Source: a virus
Virus record (IMG/VR): IMGVR_UViG_3300035128_000056
Span: 64,001 to 90,329 of that record
Direction: 5' to 3' (one strand)
Length of the DNA stretch: 26,329 nt
A model generated the notes under the pieces. That model was not told the origin of the DNA, did no database searches, and saw only the letters and a program-made list of their open reading frames with translations. Within the stretch, counting starts at the first letter, position 1; each line of letters opens with the position of its first letter. Both the position numbers and the translations under genes were made by a program. Shown one piece after another: positions 7,433 to 20,402 of this stretch.

Positions 7433-7819
7433 CTAGGACCCCTTCAGCTTCTCAATCTCCTGCCGCAGAAACTCAGCGAAGCGGAGGAACGCCCCGACGT
7501 GGTCCAGAGACTCCAGCCCGCCGTCAGCCAACTCGGAGGCATCGAGCTCCGCCTGCTCGCGGAGCCTCTGGAGGCGATCTGCTACCGCTACCGTCATGGA
7601 TCGCTTGGTGGCGGGGGAGGCCGGCTCGAAGTGCGGGCATGGCTTACCGAAGTTGATCGTGGCAATCGGCGCAGTCGCCGCAACGTAGTGCTCACCCTTC
7701 TCGCAGCGCTTCCAGCGGATCGTCTCTACGTCGCTATCCGGTAGCCCGGGAAAGTGCACGCACTGGCCGCACGTCTCCCGTTTCAGGAGCTCGTGCTGGG
7801 GGATGATGGGGATGGTCAC
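7433..7819 (-). CDS. Zinc-binding small phage protein, 128 aa
   Basis: GTG at 7819 overlaps the antirepressor stop (GTGA). The N-terminal half contains ETCGQCVHFPG, a later WKRCEKGEHY and KPCPHFEP. This CGxCxHF...C...C-x-x-F layout is common in small phage zinc proteins and is also present in the first rightward gene (8986-9321). The C-terminal 60 residues are helical (ADRLQRLREQAELDASELAD). The function is unknown; a role in nucleic acid or protein binding is inferred. Confidence 0.6.
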   Translation of the reverse strand: MTIPIIPQHELLKRETCGQCVHFPGLPDSDVETIRWKRCEKGEHYVAATAPIATINFGKPCPHFEPASPATKRSMTVAVADRLQRLREQAELDASELADGGLESLDHVGAFLRFAEFLRQEIEKLKGS

Positions 7820-8622
7820 TTGCTATTCTTTCCGTCGTCGCTATTTGGCGGCAACAGCAACGGCACCATGATGGTCATCTGCAGAGCCTTGGTGCCGAAG
7901 GCGAGCTCCATCCGGTACTTCCAGTCATCCCAGGCGGAGGCGCCCTTGGCGATCGCGATGCCGGCGATACAGACATCGCGAACCTTCTCGCGAGCCACGT
8001 CCGAGAACGTCGAGTGGTCTTGGAGGCGCGCTGATTCACCCGCAGGTACCGGGTTCAGCTCTCTGCGGCGTTCCTGCTGCCCTGGCGGCAGCGACCAGTG
8101 GTAGAGCAAGCTAGCGAGAAGCTTCGCCCATGGCGGCGCCCCAGGACCCCTGCGCGGCACTCGCGTCCCGGACTGTGCTGGGCACCACCCGAACCGGCGG
8201 AGCAGAACCTCGATCAGGTCGGAGATGAGCGGCCTCGCGTACCCGGGAGCGTTCGGGAAGTGCTCTGCAAGGAGCTTCTCTCGCTGCTCGCGTAGCTGGT
8301 GCTCATAGAGCGAGTAGTACCCGCGCTTGCGGATCTCGGGAATGACATCGCTGGTGACCCACTTCTTGAACTCGCGAGCCTGTTGCTTCCGGCTTCCGAG
8401 CACCAGTTGGTAGAGACCGGCTTCGGTGACGAATGAGGCGTGTTTTTCGCCTTGTGTCGGCTGAACCGACACATCGTCCGGGTCGAGGCGCGAGACAGCG
8501 TCCCGCGAGTTGGCGATCCCGAGTGCAGTGCAGACGTCCGCTGCGCAGAACAACGGCGTCTCGAAGTCGCCAGCGGTGCGGACCGGGTGCCCGCGGAAGT
8601 CGAAGGTGGCGAGGGTCGTCAC
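7816..8622 (-). CDS. BRO-N domain antirepressor
   Basis: The 268-aa protein begins with a BRO-N domain (residues about 1-105). The visible pattern is FRGHPVRTAG, FCAADVCTALGI, SRLDPDDVSV, SFVTEAGLYQLVLGSRKQQA and REFKKWVTSDVIPEIRKRG. BRO-N proteins of phages bind DNA and often act as antirepressors that undo CI-type repression. The C-terminal 160 residues are not assigned; they include a DLIEVLLRRFGW segment and a helical region. GTG overlaps the repressor stop (GTGA), so the two are translated together. Pairing with a repressor next to a divergent operator supports a role in the lysis-lysogeny or early switch. Confidence 0.9.
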   Translation of the reverse strand: MTTLATFDFRGHPVRTAGDFETPLFCAADVCTALGIANSRDAVSRLDPDDVSVQPTQGEKHASFVTEAGLYQLVLGSRKQQAREFKKWVTSDVIPEIRKRGYYSLYEHQLREQREKLLAEHFPNAPGYARPLISDLIEVLLRRFGWCPAQSGTRVPRRGPGAPPWAKLLASLLYHWSLPPGQQERRRELNPVPAGESARLQDHSTFSDVAREKVRDVCIAGIAIAKGASAWDDWKYRMELAFGTKALQMTIMVPLLLPPNSDDGKNSK

Positions 8623-12441: not shown

Positions 12442-12999
12442 ATGACATCCCAAAATGCCATCCCACAGAACCCAGACGTCCTCCGCGCTAACTCACTGAT
12501 CGGGCAGGCTCGCACGGCGCGCACCGCAGCAGAGTGGCGCACCTTCAAGCAGGCGCTGCTCGATGCCGAGCGAGATGCCATCGTGTGGGAAGACCTGGTC
12601 GCAGCGGCCGAGGTACGCGCTACCGAAGCCGAGGTTGCCGAGCGACGCGCGGCGCTGCAAGGTGCAGACAACGCGCTTTACGCGGCCGTCACGTGGATGC
12701 TCTCGCTGGTCACCCAGCACGCCGGAACGAGCCAAGAAGGTTTTGCTCGCGAGGTTGTGTTGGCCGCTACGAGTGAGCATGCTATCAGCGACGATGCGCG
12801 CGAATGGCTGCGGCGGCTGACTGCGCGCGGTGACCATCTGCATCGCGCGTGGGCGGTTAGGTTGATGAGGGAGTGTGAAGACACAGCCGGGCTACTACGC
12901 GAGAGTCGCAGTGGCAAACCGACTCAGTGGGACAAGATGCCAAGGGCGATGCTGCGCTGCACATGGGCGGAGAAGTTGATGAAGGAGTGTAAAGGATGA
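12442..12999 (+). CDS. Helical protein with a recT-derived C-terminal segment, 185 aa
   Basis: ATG at 12442 follows CGGAG. Residues 15-145 are helical and charged (ARTARTAAEWRTFKQALLDA, AAEVRATEAEVAERRAALQG), without a family I know. Residues 148-173 (AGLLRESRSGKPTQWDKMPR and the next five) are nearly identical to residues 451-475 of the downstream exonuclease-RecT protein. The inserted piece is flanked by a 31-bp imperfect direct repeat that encodes AVRLMREC before and AEKLMKEC after it. The original gene probably ended near the first copy. The stop overlaps the next ATG. Confidence 0.7.
   Translation: MTSQNAIPQNPDVLRANSLIGQARTARTAAEWRTFKQALLDAERDAIVWEDLVAAAEVRATEAEVAERRAALQGADNALYAAVTWMLSLVTQHAGTSQEGFAREVVLAATSEHAISDDAREWLRRLTARGDHLHRAWAVRLMRECEDTAGLLRESRSGKPTQWDKMPRAMLRCTWAEKLMKECKG
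12850..12880 (+). repeat. 31-bp imperfect direct repeat, left copy
   Basis: tgggcgg...gttgatgagggagtgt matches 12964-12994 at a fixed distance of 114 bases (38 codons, in frame), with about six mismatches. The copies flank the recT-like segment. Confidence 0.75.
12883..12960 (+). repeat. 78-bp copy of a recT segment
   Basis: Matches 14666-14743 with seven mismatches over 78 bases, in the same reading frame, so both DNA and protein agree. The match stops abruptly at both ends. Confidence 0.85.
12964..12994 (+). repeat. 31-bp imperfect direct repeat, right copy
   Basis: This is the partner of 12850-12880. It forms the last codons of the gene and runs into its stop. Confidence 0.75.
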
Positions 13000-13319
13000 C
13001 AGGAATCGAACTGGAGCTAATCAAGAGCGCGAAGCCACACCAGATCCACGACGCGCTGAAAAGCCTCTACGATCAGGTAATGCGTGCCGAAAAGTGGAAC
13101 GACGAGAAGTCAGACCAGATCATCACGGCGCGCCAGATTCTGATTCGCGCTGCTCGACACTGCGGCGTAATGCTTCCGTCAGAAGACGATTTTCCGCGCA
13201 TCGTTGAGGCGATTGCCCGCGCGCTTGTCGCTCAACACGTGCAGATCGCCATCAAGGTCTCAGGCGGGGAAGTGTTTGATCCGGTTCCAGATCCAGATCG
13301 CGAGGAGATGCCTTTCTGA
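12996..13319 (+). CDS. Hypothetical protein with SSB-like acidic tail, 107 aa
   Basis: ATG overlaps the preceding stop (ATGA) and the stop shares one base with the fusion gene start. The body is helical (TARQILIRAARHCGVMLPSE, IVEAIARALVAQHVQIAIKV). It ends DPVPDPDREEMPF, which resembles the acidic C-terminal tip (x-D-D-x-I-P-F) by which bacterial SSB recruits partner enzymes. No OB fold is seen. A link with the exonuclease-RecT protein next to it is inferred. Confidence 0.6.
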   Translation: MTGIELELIKSAKPHQIHDALKSLYDQVMRAEKWNDEKSDQIITARQILIRAARHCGVMLPSEDDFPRIVEAIARALVAQHVQIAIKVSGGEVFDPVPDPDREEMPF

Positions 13320-14860
13320 TGTCACGACTACTACTCATCGACCTGTCAGGCCTGTTCTGGCAAAACTGGCACGCGACTGCGGACAAGGAGCTTGGTGCTG
13401 CGTTCACGTTGACGCTGAAGAAAATCCAGAGCTACGCTGGCCACTATGACCACGTCGCTATTGCCTTGGATCGTCCGCCGTACAAGCGCAAGCAGATCTC
13501 GCAGGAATACAAGGCGCAAAGGGACACTCCAGCCGAGGACGCGCTAGACCAGTTCCGGCGCATTCGTGAGCGCTTGAGCGATGATGGGTATCTGCTCTGG
13601 GGTGTCGATGGGTTCGAGGCCGACGACGTGATCGCAACTGCTGCTCGCATCGCAACGACAACGCACGGGATGAGCGTCGATATTCTATCGGCAGACAAGG
13701 ACCTGATGCAGGTGATCGACGACGAACTCAAGATCGTCTGCATCAGCCCGCGCACCGGCGAGCGATACAACTCGGACGGTGTCTTCTCAAAGTTCGGGGT
13801 GCTCCCTGACCACGTTGGTGACCAGCTTGCGCTGACCGGTGACAAGTCCGACAACGTGCCTGGGATACCTGGTGTCGGACCGAAGCGGGCAGCAGCGCTC
13901 CTCGATCATTGGGGCTCGCTTGATGAACTACAGCGCGCCATAGCTGATGGCGACGACACGGAGGAGATCTCCCCGCCGGCAGTCCGCAAGGCGCTGCTGG
14001 AGAACGCGGATCAACTCGAGACGTCCCGTAAGCTTGTCCGACTAGTCACAGATTTGCCGATCAACTTCGACGAACTGTTCGAGGAACGCGAGAGGAAGAC
14101 GGGAGAGCACAACGAAGTGCCAGACGAGGAATTCGACGATGAGCCCGGCGCCAAGCCGCCACAGGAGGAACCGAGTATGCAAGAAGAAACCACGCCTCCG
14201 CGGGAAGAGCCGGCGGAGCCGAAGCAAACAACCACCAACGACGCGCAGCAGAAGTCCAGCCCGGAAGCTTCCGCGCCACAGCCAGAGGAGCGCCGCATCG
14301 TAAGGGCCAGCACGGACGACTGGAACTATGCCCTGGAGCCGAGCACGCCACGCGGAGCCTGGCGCCTGGCCAATGCGATGTGTGAGTCTCGCGCGTTCGG
14401 AATTGCGAACCCAGAAACAGCGCTCGCCATCATCATGAAGGGGCGCAGCCTGGGCCTCGACGCCGTGACGGCGCTTACCTCGTTCCACATGATCGAGGGC
14501 AAGCCGAGCATGTCCGCGCAACTTCTGATCGGCATGATCAAGGCGTCCCCAAAGTGCGAGTACTTCACACTAGTGAAGAGCACGCGCGAGATCGCGGTGT
14601 GGCGCACCAAGCGCGTTGGAGAGCCAGAGCCACAGGAACTCGACTGGACGCTGGACGATGCAAGGACAGCCGGGCTACTGCGCGAGAGTCGCAGCGGCAA
14701 GCCTACTCAGTGGGACAAGATGCCAAGAACCATGCTGCGCTGGCGCTGCGGGGTGGAGCTTGGCCGCGCCGTCTACCCAGACGTCATCACCAATCTGTAC
14801 TCCGTCGAGGAGATGCACGACGTCATCGAGGCGCGCGGGGTGGAGGTGATTTCGGCATGA
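13319..14860 (+). CDS. Flap 5'-3' exonuclease fused to RecT/Bet-like annealing protein
   Basis: The 513-aa protein has two domains. Residues 1-255 are a FEN/PolA-N-type nuclease: metal-binding acids are seen at D8 (LLIDLSG), D51 (ALDRP), E100-D102-D103 (FEADDV), D126-D128 (SADKD) and D175-D178 (GDKSD), followed by the helix-hairpin-helix VPGIPGVGPKRA. Residues 256-325 are an acidic, Pro/Gln-rich linker. Residues 330-513 read like a RecT/Bet-family annealase: ALAIIMKGRSLGLDAVTALT, FHMIEGKPSMSAQLLIGMI, LDWTLDDARTAGLL, then QWDKMPRTMLRWRCGVELGR and VYPDVITNLYSVEEM. In Red-type systems an exonuclease and an annealing protein are separate partners; here they seem to be one chain. All nuclease acids are intact. 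Confidence 0.85.
   Translation: MSRLLLIDLSGLFWQNWHATADKELGAAFTLTLKKIQSYAGHYDHVAIALDRPPYKRKQISQEYKAQRDTPAEDALDQFRRIRERLSDDGYLLWGVDGFEADDVIATAARIATTTHGMSVDILSADKDLMQVIDDELKIVCISPRTGERYNSDGVFSKFGVLPDHVGDQLALTGDKSDNVPGIPGVGPKRAAALLDHWGSLDELQRAIADGDDTEEISPPAVRKALLENADQLETSRKLVRLVTDLPINFDELFEERERKTGEHNEVPDEEFDDEPGAKPPQEEPSMQEETTPPREEPAEPKQTTTNDAQQKSSPEASAPQPEERRIVRASTDDWNYALEPSTPRGAWRLANAMCESRAFGIANPETALAIIMKGRSLGLDAVTALTSFHMIEGKPSMSAQLLIGMIKASPKCEYFTLVKSTREIAVWRTKRVGEPEPQELDWTLDDARTAGLLRESRSGKPTQWDKMPRTMLRWRCGVELGRAVYPDVITNLYSVEEMHDVIEARGVEVISA
14666..14743 (+). repeat. Partner of the 78-bp recT segment
   Basis: Lies within the RecT-like domain of the fusion gene. Since the sequence is an integral part of that fold, this copy is the likely source. 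Confidence 0.85.
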
Positions 14861-15957
14861 CCAGGATCACCACAACATCAACCCCGCCGGTCGTCTACCA
14901 GTTCACCACCGACGAACTCCGCCAGAAGCTCTCGGAGGTTCCGGAAGGGTTCGAGGAAACCGTCACCGCGATTTCCTCCGGAGACATCGACGAAGACCAA
15001 CTCCGCGAGCGCGCCTGCGAACTGCTCGGTCCCGCCAAGTCCCGGCAAGCTATCCGCGCAGCGCTCGCCGTCCGGCGCACCCTCCGCGGTGACATCGAGG
15101 CAAAGCGCAAAGAACTGAAGGCTGGCGCTCTCGAGTACGGGAGAAAGGTCGACGCCGTCGCCAAGGAACTCATCGGCATCGTGCTCGAGACAGAGACCCC
15201 GCTCAAGGCCATGAAACAGGCTCACGACGACGAGCAGGAGCGGATCAAGCGCGAGCGTGAGGAAGCGGAACGCCAGGTGCGCGAGTCAGAGCTCCGGCGC
15301 CAGCGAGAGGAGGAGGAAGCCCGACTTCGTGCCGAGCGGGAAGCCGAGGAGAAGCGGATCGCCGAGGAACGGGCAAAGCTCGAAGCCGAACGGAAGGCCG
15401 CCGAGGAGTCAGCCAGGGCTGAGCGCGAGAAGCTGGAGGTAGAGCGAGCCAAGCTGAAGGCCGAGCGCGAGGCCCAGGAGGCCGCTCAGCGCGCCGAGCA
15501 GGCCCGGAGGGATGCGGAGGCCAGGGCGGAGCGGGAGCGCATTGACGCCGAACGTCGAGCGATTGAGGAGCAACGCCGGCAGGTAGAGCGTGAAGAAGCA
15601 GAGCGACAGGCCAAGATCCGGGCCGAGCAGGAAGCCAAGGAGCGGGCGGAACGCGACCGCCGCGAGGCCGAGGAAGCCGCCGTCCGGGAGCGGGAGAGGC
15701 AGGCAGCGCTGGCGTCCCGACTCGAGGCGCTTAAGCCGGACAAGGAGCGGGCGGTCGACTACATGGATCGGCTGCTCGCTGTCGAGAAGCCTCATGTGGA
15801 CGATCCAGACATGGACCGGTTGCTGGACCAATTGCGAATCGAACTCGGAGACTGGAAAGACGATTTCTCGCGCTTCGGGGACGCGGACGACTTCGAGGAA
15901 GTGAGCCAACTCCAGGAGACCCAGGCTCACGGCGGCGGACTCGGAGGAGGGGACTGA
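14857..15957 (+). CDS. Long charged helix (ER/K-type) protein, 366 aa
   Basis: ATG at 14857 overlaps the fusion gene stop (ATGA). Residues 45-120 (AIRAALAVRRTLRGDIEAKR, GALEYGRKVDAVAKELIGIV) match a helical domain often found next to phage recombination genes and akin to DUF1351-type proteins. Residues 125-295 are almost pure E/R/K/A, such as EREEAERQVRESELRRQREE, and would form a long coiled coil or single alpha helix. The C-terminus is acidic, with GGGLGGGD at the end. Its place next to RecT suggests a scaffold or regulator of recombination, which is an inference. Its codon pattern makes a large open frame on the other strand. Confidence 0.75.
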   Translation: MTRITTTSTPPVVYQFTTDELRQKLSEVPEGFEETVTAISSGDIDEDQLRERACELLGPAKSRQAIRAALAVRRTLRGDIEAKRKELKAGALEYGRKVDAVAKELIGIVLETETPLKAMKQAHDDEQERIKREREEAERQVRESELRRQREEEEARLRAEREAEEKRIAEERAKLEAERKAAEESARAEREKLEVERAKLKAEREAQEAAQRAEQARRDAEARAERERIDAERRAIEEQRRQVEREEAERQAKIRAEQEAKERAERDRREAEEAAVRERERQAALASRLEALKPDKERAVDYMDRLLAVEKPHVDDPDMDRLLDQLRIELGDWKDDFSRFGDADDFEEVSQLQETQAHGGGLGGGD

Positions 15958-19956: not shown

Positions 19957-20008
19957 CCCACAATCGGTCGATGGGTGACTTTCGCGCATATTCTCGTCGT
20001 GCCACCTT

Positions 20009-20036
20009 TGGCATACCACGTGCACTAGTACCTGGC
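20009..20036 (+). promoter_or_regulatory. Conserved start leader, copy 1
   Basis: With the ATG at 20037 it forms a 31-base stretch identical at 27 positions to 22057-22087. It includes TGCACTAG exactly 16 bases before the ATG. No Shine-Dalgarno is present, so leaderless translation is possible. Confidence 0.6.
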
Positions 20037-20402
20037 ATGGCGACACGAAAAGCAGGTCAGGGCAGCAAGTGGATTCGGCCGACGACGCGGCTGGCGATCT
20101 ACCTCCGCGACGGCCTGTGCTGCGCATACTGCGGCCACGCGGTCGAAGAGGGCGAGCGCCTGAGCCTCGACCACCTGAGCCCCGCGAGCCGAGGCGGCCA
20201 GAACGACGCAAGCAACCTCGTGACCTGCTGCTCGCACTGCAACAGCGCCCGCGGCAACCGGCCGCTGAGGACCTGGTGCCGCGCTGTCAGCGCGTACACC
20301 GGTGAGGACGCCGCCGCCATCGAGCGCCGCGTCCGCAAGCTGTCCCGCCGCGCCCTTCCGCGCGATGAGGCCCGAGAGATGATCGCCCGCCGCGCGGGCT
20401 GA
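20037..20402 (+). CDS. HNH endonuclease, 121 aa
   Basis: The HNH motif is complete. It has YLRDGLCCAYCG (zinc CxxC), then LSLDHLSPASRGG (D45-H46, the catalytic His), SNLVTCCSHCN (N60, zinc CxxC at 65-68) and SARGNRPL. This is the classic His-Me finger nuclease layout, seen in phage homing endonucleases and in stand-alone HNH genes. The start at 20037 uses the conserved leader; an in-frame upstream extension (from 19971) is less likely. It makes a nick or double-strand cut in DNA; the target is unknown. The C-terminal part (SAYTGEDAAAIERRVRKLSR) is helical. Confidence 0.88.
   Translation: MATRKAGQGSKWIRPTTRLAIYLRDGLCCAYCGHAVEEGERLSLDHLSPASRGGQNDASNLVTCCSHCNSARGNRPLRTWCRAVSAYTGEDAAAIERRVRKLSRRALPRDEAREMIARRAG

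Follow-up and report, generated by a model that had tools for sequence, protein, structure and literature searches.

Pairs of an exonuclease and an annealase are what drives recombination in phages, and recombineering is built on them; how the product of the exonuclease is handed over to the annealase is a long-studied question. In phage T7, the FEN-family exonuclease gp6 works with the annealing protein gp2.5, but each is a protein of its own, and gp2.5 has an OB fold and resembles SSB; it is not a RecT. FEN enzymes also cut 5' flaps and remove primers. The N-terminal domain of bacterial DNA polymerase I and the standalone FENs (ExoIX and T5 D15) share such a nuclease domain, with the same acids, but carry no annealase. 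The lambda Red (Exo and Redbeta) and RecE-RecT systems combine a 5'-3' nuclease with an annealase of the RecT/Redbeta fold, and are expected to act at DNA ends; these are two-protein systems, and their nucleases, of the lambda-exonuclease/YqaJ/RecE kind, belong to a family different from the FENs (PMC7496540, PMC8093625), as an earlier reading of the present DNA from its letters alone (hereafter, the sequence-only reading) had stated. In a survey of Firmicutes annealases, the neighbours named are YqaJ, DUF3799, DUF2800 and SbcC, and the words 'fusion' and 'fused' are absent from it (PMC8093625). We found no description of a FEN-annealase fusion in the literature, in a search that covered neither most subscription journals nor bioRxiv preprints.

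The gene considered here lies in a stretch of 26,329 nucleotides (the window, referring to its whole length), which makes up the last 26 kb of a virus record 90,329 bases long. It differs from lambda Red and RecET in that both partners are encoded by one ORF as one chain, the nuclease is of the FEN type, and the chain stops at the RecT core, whereas in those systems the annealase has a C-terminal domain that recruits the nuclease. With two proteins each and a nuclease from another family, lambda Red and RecET do not include the fusion as a member, although it probably works like them, its activity being inferred. The fused FENs are also separate from those of polymerase I, ExoIX and T5 D15 on the FEN tree. 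We consider it likely that the gene encodes a single-chain exonuclease-annealase recombinase of the single-strand-annealing kind with an exchangeable annealase, although its activities, their order and its role are inferred without any biochemistry.

Architecture of the 513-residue chain

The features of the gene are as follows.

13319-14860 (+): FEN-RecT fusion gene, 513 aa plus stop (profiles, model, and 70 distinct homologous fusion genes)
13319-14083 (+): predicted PolA-type FEN 5'-3' exonuclease domain, residues 1-255 (PF02739 and PF01367, fold, nine acids)
14084-14323 (+): acidic Pro/Glu-rich disordered linker, residues 256-335 (composition, pLDDT, relaxed selection in relatives)
14163-14179 (+): possible internal ribosome-binding site AGGAGGA (14163-14169) with an in-frame ATG at 14177 (Met287), in the linker
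14324-14857 (+): predicted RecT/Redbeta annealase domain, residues 336-513, with no C-terminal tail (profiles, fold)

The ORF is open over 513 codons with zero internal stops, and profiles, fold and homologues agree on a nuclease and an annealase in one polypeptide, as the sequence-only reading had proposed. The full-length AlphaFold model consists of two domains, in which pLDDT mostly exceeds 85-90, and a disordered stretch between them at residues 264-332. The 80-residue linker contains 23 D+E, 10 K+R and 12 P and has a pLDDT of about 43, in keeping with the acidic disordered linker described in that reading.

Judged by its sequence, the segment of residues 1-255 belongs to the PolA-type FEN 5'-3' exonucleases, and its nuclease activity is inferred. 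Pfam 5_3_exonuc_N (PF02739) matched residues 3-160 (6e-27; 94.8 bits against a gathering score of 34.3), 5_3_exonuc (PF01367) matched residues 162-251 (8e-24; 84.4 bits against a gathering score of 40), and the PHROGs exonuclease profile phrog_107 matched residues 3-316. All nine metal-binding acids are there (D8, D51, E100, D102, D103, D126, D128, D175 and D178); the only one that varies across 38 fused homologues is D8, with a conservation of at least 90%. The YKxxR arch motif is present as YKAQR, and so is the helix-hairpin-helix, GDKSDNVPGIPGVGPK. The full set of FEN/PolA-N metal-binding acids and the helix-hairpin-helix noticed at first reading were therefore recovered, with Pfam and the predicted fold in agreement. 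The closest solved relative by sequence is Taq polymerase, and the closest by fold are ExoIX, T5 FEN and mycobacterial FEN, the model of this half matching ExoIX with a TMt of 0.87 and T5 FEN with a TMt of 0.73.

Residues from about 336 to 513 are assigned to the RecT/Redbeta-type annealases from profiles and a predicted fold, annealing and oligomerisation being inferred. The Pfam RecT profile (PF03837) matched residues 431-505 just above its gathering score (8e-6; 25.9 bits against 24), phrog_561, a RecT-like annealing protein, matched residues 340-507 (E=2.5e-25), and a profile of 22 relatives, compared with solved structures, matched lambda Redbeta at 1.3e-6. The AlphaFold model of the half (pLDDT 82) retrieved Redbeta first in Foldseek (7ujl, E 4e-5, prob 1.0), and VIA aligned it with Redbeta at Z 9.0 over 137 residues, with A118 RecT at Z 7.2 and with Rad52 near Z 6. 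Structure prediction of the two halves thus gave an ExoIX/T5 FEN-like and a Redbeta/RecT-like fold, and the RecT/Bet-like character that the sequence-only reading had attributed to residues 330-513 was supported.

The fused RecTs differ from standalone ones in what follows the core. The residues beyond the RecT core number 1.5 in the median in fused proteins, and no more than 10 in complete ORFs, against 25-235 (median 153) in 33 standalone RecTs, so that the two ranges are disjoint. The C-terminal domain of Redbeta binds lambda exonuclease and SSB (PMC8303780); as the fused RecTs have no such tail, the simplest reading, which remains an inference, is that the covalent tether made the recruiting tail dispensable. 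In a tree with 20 standalone RecTs, a branch sets the fused RecTs apart from these, though its SH-aLRT of 90 is not decisive.

Distribution of the fusion and exchange of its annealase

We scanned uncultivated viral contigs with a FEN alignment, classified the loci by profiles, and extended the set by further scans. FEN and RecT were found in one ORF at 114 loci, comprising 70 distinct gene sequences in contigs from many metagenomes, and their order was always FEN, linker, RecT; other phages with the same order of domains, named at first reading as a way to check the fusion, thus do exist. Closely related fusion pairs are under purifying selection, with dN/dS of about 0.1-0.2 in the FEN half and 0.02-0.18 in the RecT half, the linker being looser. 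These data bear on whether an error of sequencing or assembly joined two adjacent genes, for example through a missing stop near residue 255, a concern that the sequence-only reading had itself raised. Separate adjacent FEN and recT genes do exist (L092 and L121), and in one contig (L105) the reading frame shifts from one half to the other, but 70 distinct in-frame fusion genes from many metagenomes, with selection acting on both halves, leave such an error only a vanishing chance. Since so many homologues share the in-frame fusion, we take a missing stop to be ruled out from the sequences, and we rejected an erroneous origin of the RecT fusion.

Other searches were less productive. A scan of the uncultivated viral contigs with the window protein alone returned nothing, its search patterns being too exact, although the FEN alignment later found the family. 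A RecT-side scan gave standalone RecTs only, with no FEN in the surrounding loci examined. Neither about 50,000 GenBank phage records, searched with the window protein and four fusion queries, nor plasmids, searched with fusion queries, had a match covering at least 80% of a query in a single place, and one scan of genome contigs matched the FEN half alone, in every case within a long ORF about the size of PolA. In UniProt, A0A6J5MUB0 from an uncultured Caudovirales phage aligns to the full-length model over 502 columns with 32% identity (E 4.6e-41); it has the same architecture, although its database name, 'PIN_53EXO domain containing protein', covers the exonuclease only. Separately, positions 3258-5103 of L105 look like a fusion gene of the L097 kind that has undergone a frameshift, so that the frames of FEN and RecT overlap.

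RecT is not the only annealase joined to a FEN. Sak3 takes its place in three fusions (L103, L126 and L127; PHROG 3290 at 3.7e-48 in L103), Mgm101/Rad52 in one (L077; Pfam, 4e-28) and Sak4 in one (L111; Pfam AAA_24, 5e-33, and PHROG 124). A single ERF fusion (L113; Pfam, 1e-13) has the reverse order, ERF-FEN, and carries a PolA-group FEN separate from the fused FEN lineage. Two further FEN scans for additional Sak4 or Mgm101 fusions returned none beyond the contig already known; the Mgm101, Sak4 and ERF fusions each rest on one contig, which leaves some room for an assembly artefact.

The Sak3, Mgm101 and Sak4 fusions arise from within the RecT fusions in the FEN tree, on starred branches. The FEN of the Mgm101 fusion (L077) is 80% identical to that of a RecT fusion (L065), and DNA homology between the two contigs extends over the upstream genes and the FEN, breaks off where the FEN domain ends, and restarts downstream. 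In the near-identical pair L046/L047, dS rises to 2.28 in the RecT half, from 0.23 in the FEN and 0.17 in the linker. From this break in homology at the FEN boundary and this jump in dS, both read from sequence comparison, we infer that the linker joint is a site where annealase halves are exchanged. A FEN chassis on which RecT, Sak3, Mgm101/Rad52 and the RecA-like Sak4 are exchangeable at the linker is well supported, and such repeated natural exchange on one nuclease suggests that a FEN is able to cooperate with annealases whose folds differ.

Proposed order of action and competing readings

While the architecture, the intact catalytic acids, the predicted folds, the selection on both halves, the loss of the tail and the swaps are all established from sequence, nuclease activity, annealing activity, the order in which they act and the biological role are inferred. 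In the mechanism that we consider most likely, the FEN domain would degrade the 5' strand wherever phage DNA has an end, a nick or a gap, and so leave 3' single strands, and the RecT domain, held on its 80-residue flexible linker, would load on the 3' single strand, oligomerise and anneal a complementary strand, the outcome in the phage being concatemer formation, break repair and genetic exchange. The covalent tether would stand in for the C-terminal domain with which standalone annealases such as Redbeta recruit the exonuclease, and the annealase half would be an exchangeable module, swapped by recombination at the linker while the nuclease is kept. The direct hand-over of resected ends to the annealase is an inference, which the natural covalent fusion makes directly testable.

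Trimming of flaps after annealing remains a live alternative and is the main rival to this resection-first reading, neither activity having been shown. RecT would then act first, annealing strands for the most part at the replication fork, after which the 5' flap or primer would be removed by the tethered FEN to allow ligation. The FEN half is indeed of the PolA/ExoIX/T5-FEN kind, a family that cuts 5' flaps and primers, and we found no phage polymerase I to provide this removal, either in the record of the window or in 30 fused records. However, flap removal is normally supplied by the host PolA, and the gene adjoining recT in known phages is usually an end-resecting nuclease (PMC8093625), so we give trimming perhaps one chance in a few. 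In favour of the single-chain recombinase, neither the record of the window nor the 30 fused records has a match to polymerase I, YqaJ or DUF3799. This absence of other nucleases was judged from no more than two Pfam families, and the records may be incomplete; that of YqaJ (0 of 30 fused records against 2 of 20 standalone-RecT records) discriminates little, because YqaJ is rare in standalone-RecT records too. The record of the window has no match to the SSB family, and an SSB is present in 2 of the 30 fused records. In addition, the ORF directly downstream ends in an SSB-type C-terminal tip, DDIPF or DDSIPF, in 7 of 65 other fusion genes (L072, L094, L106, L108, L135, L159 and L177), and in none of several thousand other ORFs checked.

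It is also conceivable that the two halves have unrelated jobs, such as primer removal and recombination, and that the fusion is only a convenient means of co-expression; a long, disordered and poorly conserved linker means that no fixed interface is needed. However, fusion of this FEN lineage with annealases that differ in fold has occurred repeatedly, and the fused RecTs have lost the tail, both of which suggest functional coupling, and we think such independence of the halves improbable.

Returning to the single-chain recombinase, a further possibility is that its gene has two products, the full chain and a RecT-only protein started at the ATG at 14177, which would form mixed filaments with few nuclease-bearing subunits. 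AGGAGGA, which resembles a strong ribosome-binding site, lies 7 nt ahead of this ATG, a similar site occurs in many relatives, and 34 of the 39 linkers left after dereplication contain Met, of which 25 of about 80 fall 10-19 residues past the FEN end. Five of the 39 linkers, however, have no Met, and acidic codons, e.g. GAGGAG, resemble ribosome-binding sites regardless. In a synonymous-shuffle test over the family, the summed energy was -201.5 against -182.4 +/- 11.2, a modest excess that was reached in 7 of 200 shuffles. With only this weak support, we did not retain the internal start as a general feature of the family; a RecT-only product from Met287 may exist, on weak evidence, and we regard the dual-product gene as doubtful. 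Equally tentative is the broader notion of a recombinase class in which annealase cartridges are mounted on a FEN chassis and an internal start, itself speculative, determines how many subunits of the filament bear the nuclease relative to those with the annealase only. In practical terms, a single-gene recombinase could be a simpler tool in hosts where Red and RecET perform poorly.

The source phage and the genes around the fusion

According to Pfam and PHROGs profiles, the record encodes a terminase, a portal, tail-sheath and baseplate proteins, a DnaB-like helicase, a primase and a Bro-N antirepressor, from which we conclude that the source phage is contractile-tailed and probably temperate. 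The fusion gene (13319-14860, +) lies within a rightward run of small genes, with the following neighbours.

12442-12999 (+): 185-aa upstream protein, containing an in-frame copy of the RecT core motif (12883-12959)
12996-13319 (+): 107-aa protein with the C-terminus DPDREEMPF (loosely SSB-tip-like), overlapping the start of the fusion gene by a few bases
14857-15957 (+): 366-aa charged long-helix protein, overlapping the stop of the fusion gene by a few bases

The sequence-only reading had suggested that the flanking SSB-tail-like and long-helix genes may belong to the same machine. Both genes do overlap the fusion gene, but conservation does not support their membership: homologues of the 107-aa and 366-aa proteins were looked for next to other fusion genes and none was found, and we therefore rejected the two genes as conserved partners. 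The 107-aa protein matched no Pfam family, and the N-terminal part of the long-helix protein, searched against phages, gave no match.

The 77-nt copy within the 185-aa protein (12883-12959, +) is in frame and 91% identical to 14666-14742, with differences that look mostly synonymous; either an exchange of annealases left it behind as a scar or the peptide has been retained, both being mere possibilities. In another contig, a RecT C-terminal fragment similar in kind lies directly 3' of a complete FEN-RecT fusion gene (L064, 2402-2554). Elsewhere in the window, the Bro-N antirepressor gene (7819-8622, -) is found close to the place at which leftward genes give way to rightward ones, and an HNH endonuclease gene (19971-20402, +) lies in the same rightward run as the fusion gene. 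Outside the window, one protein encoded at 38010-39326 of record G000 has both ParB-like and DNA methyltransferase family matches.
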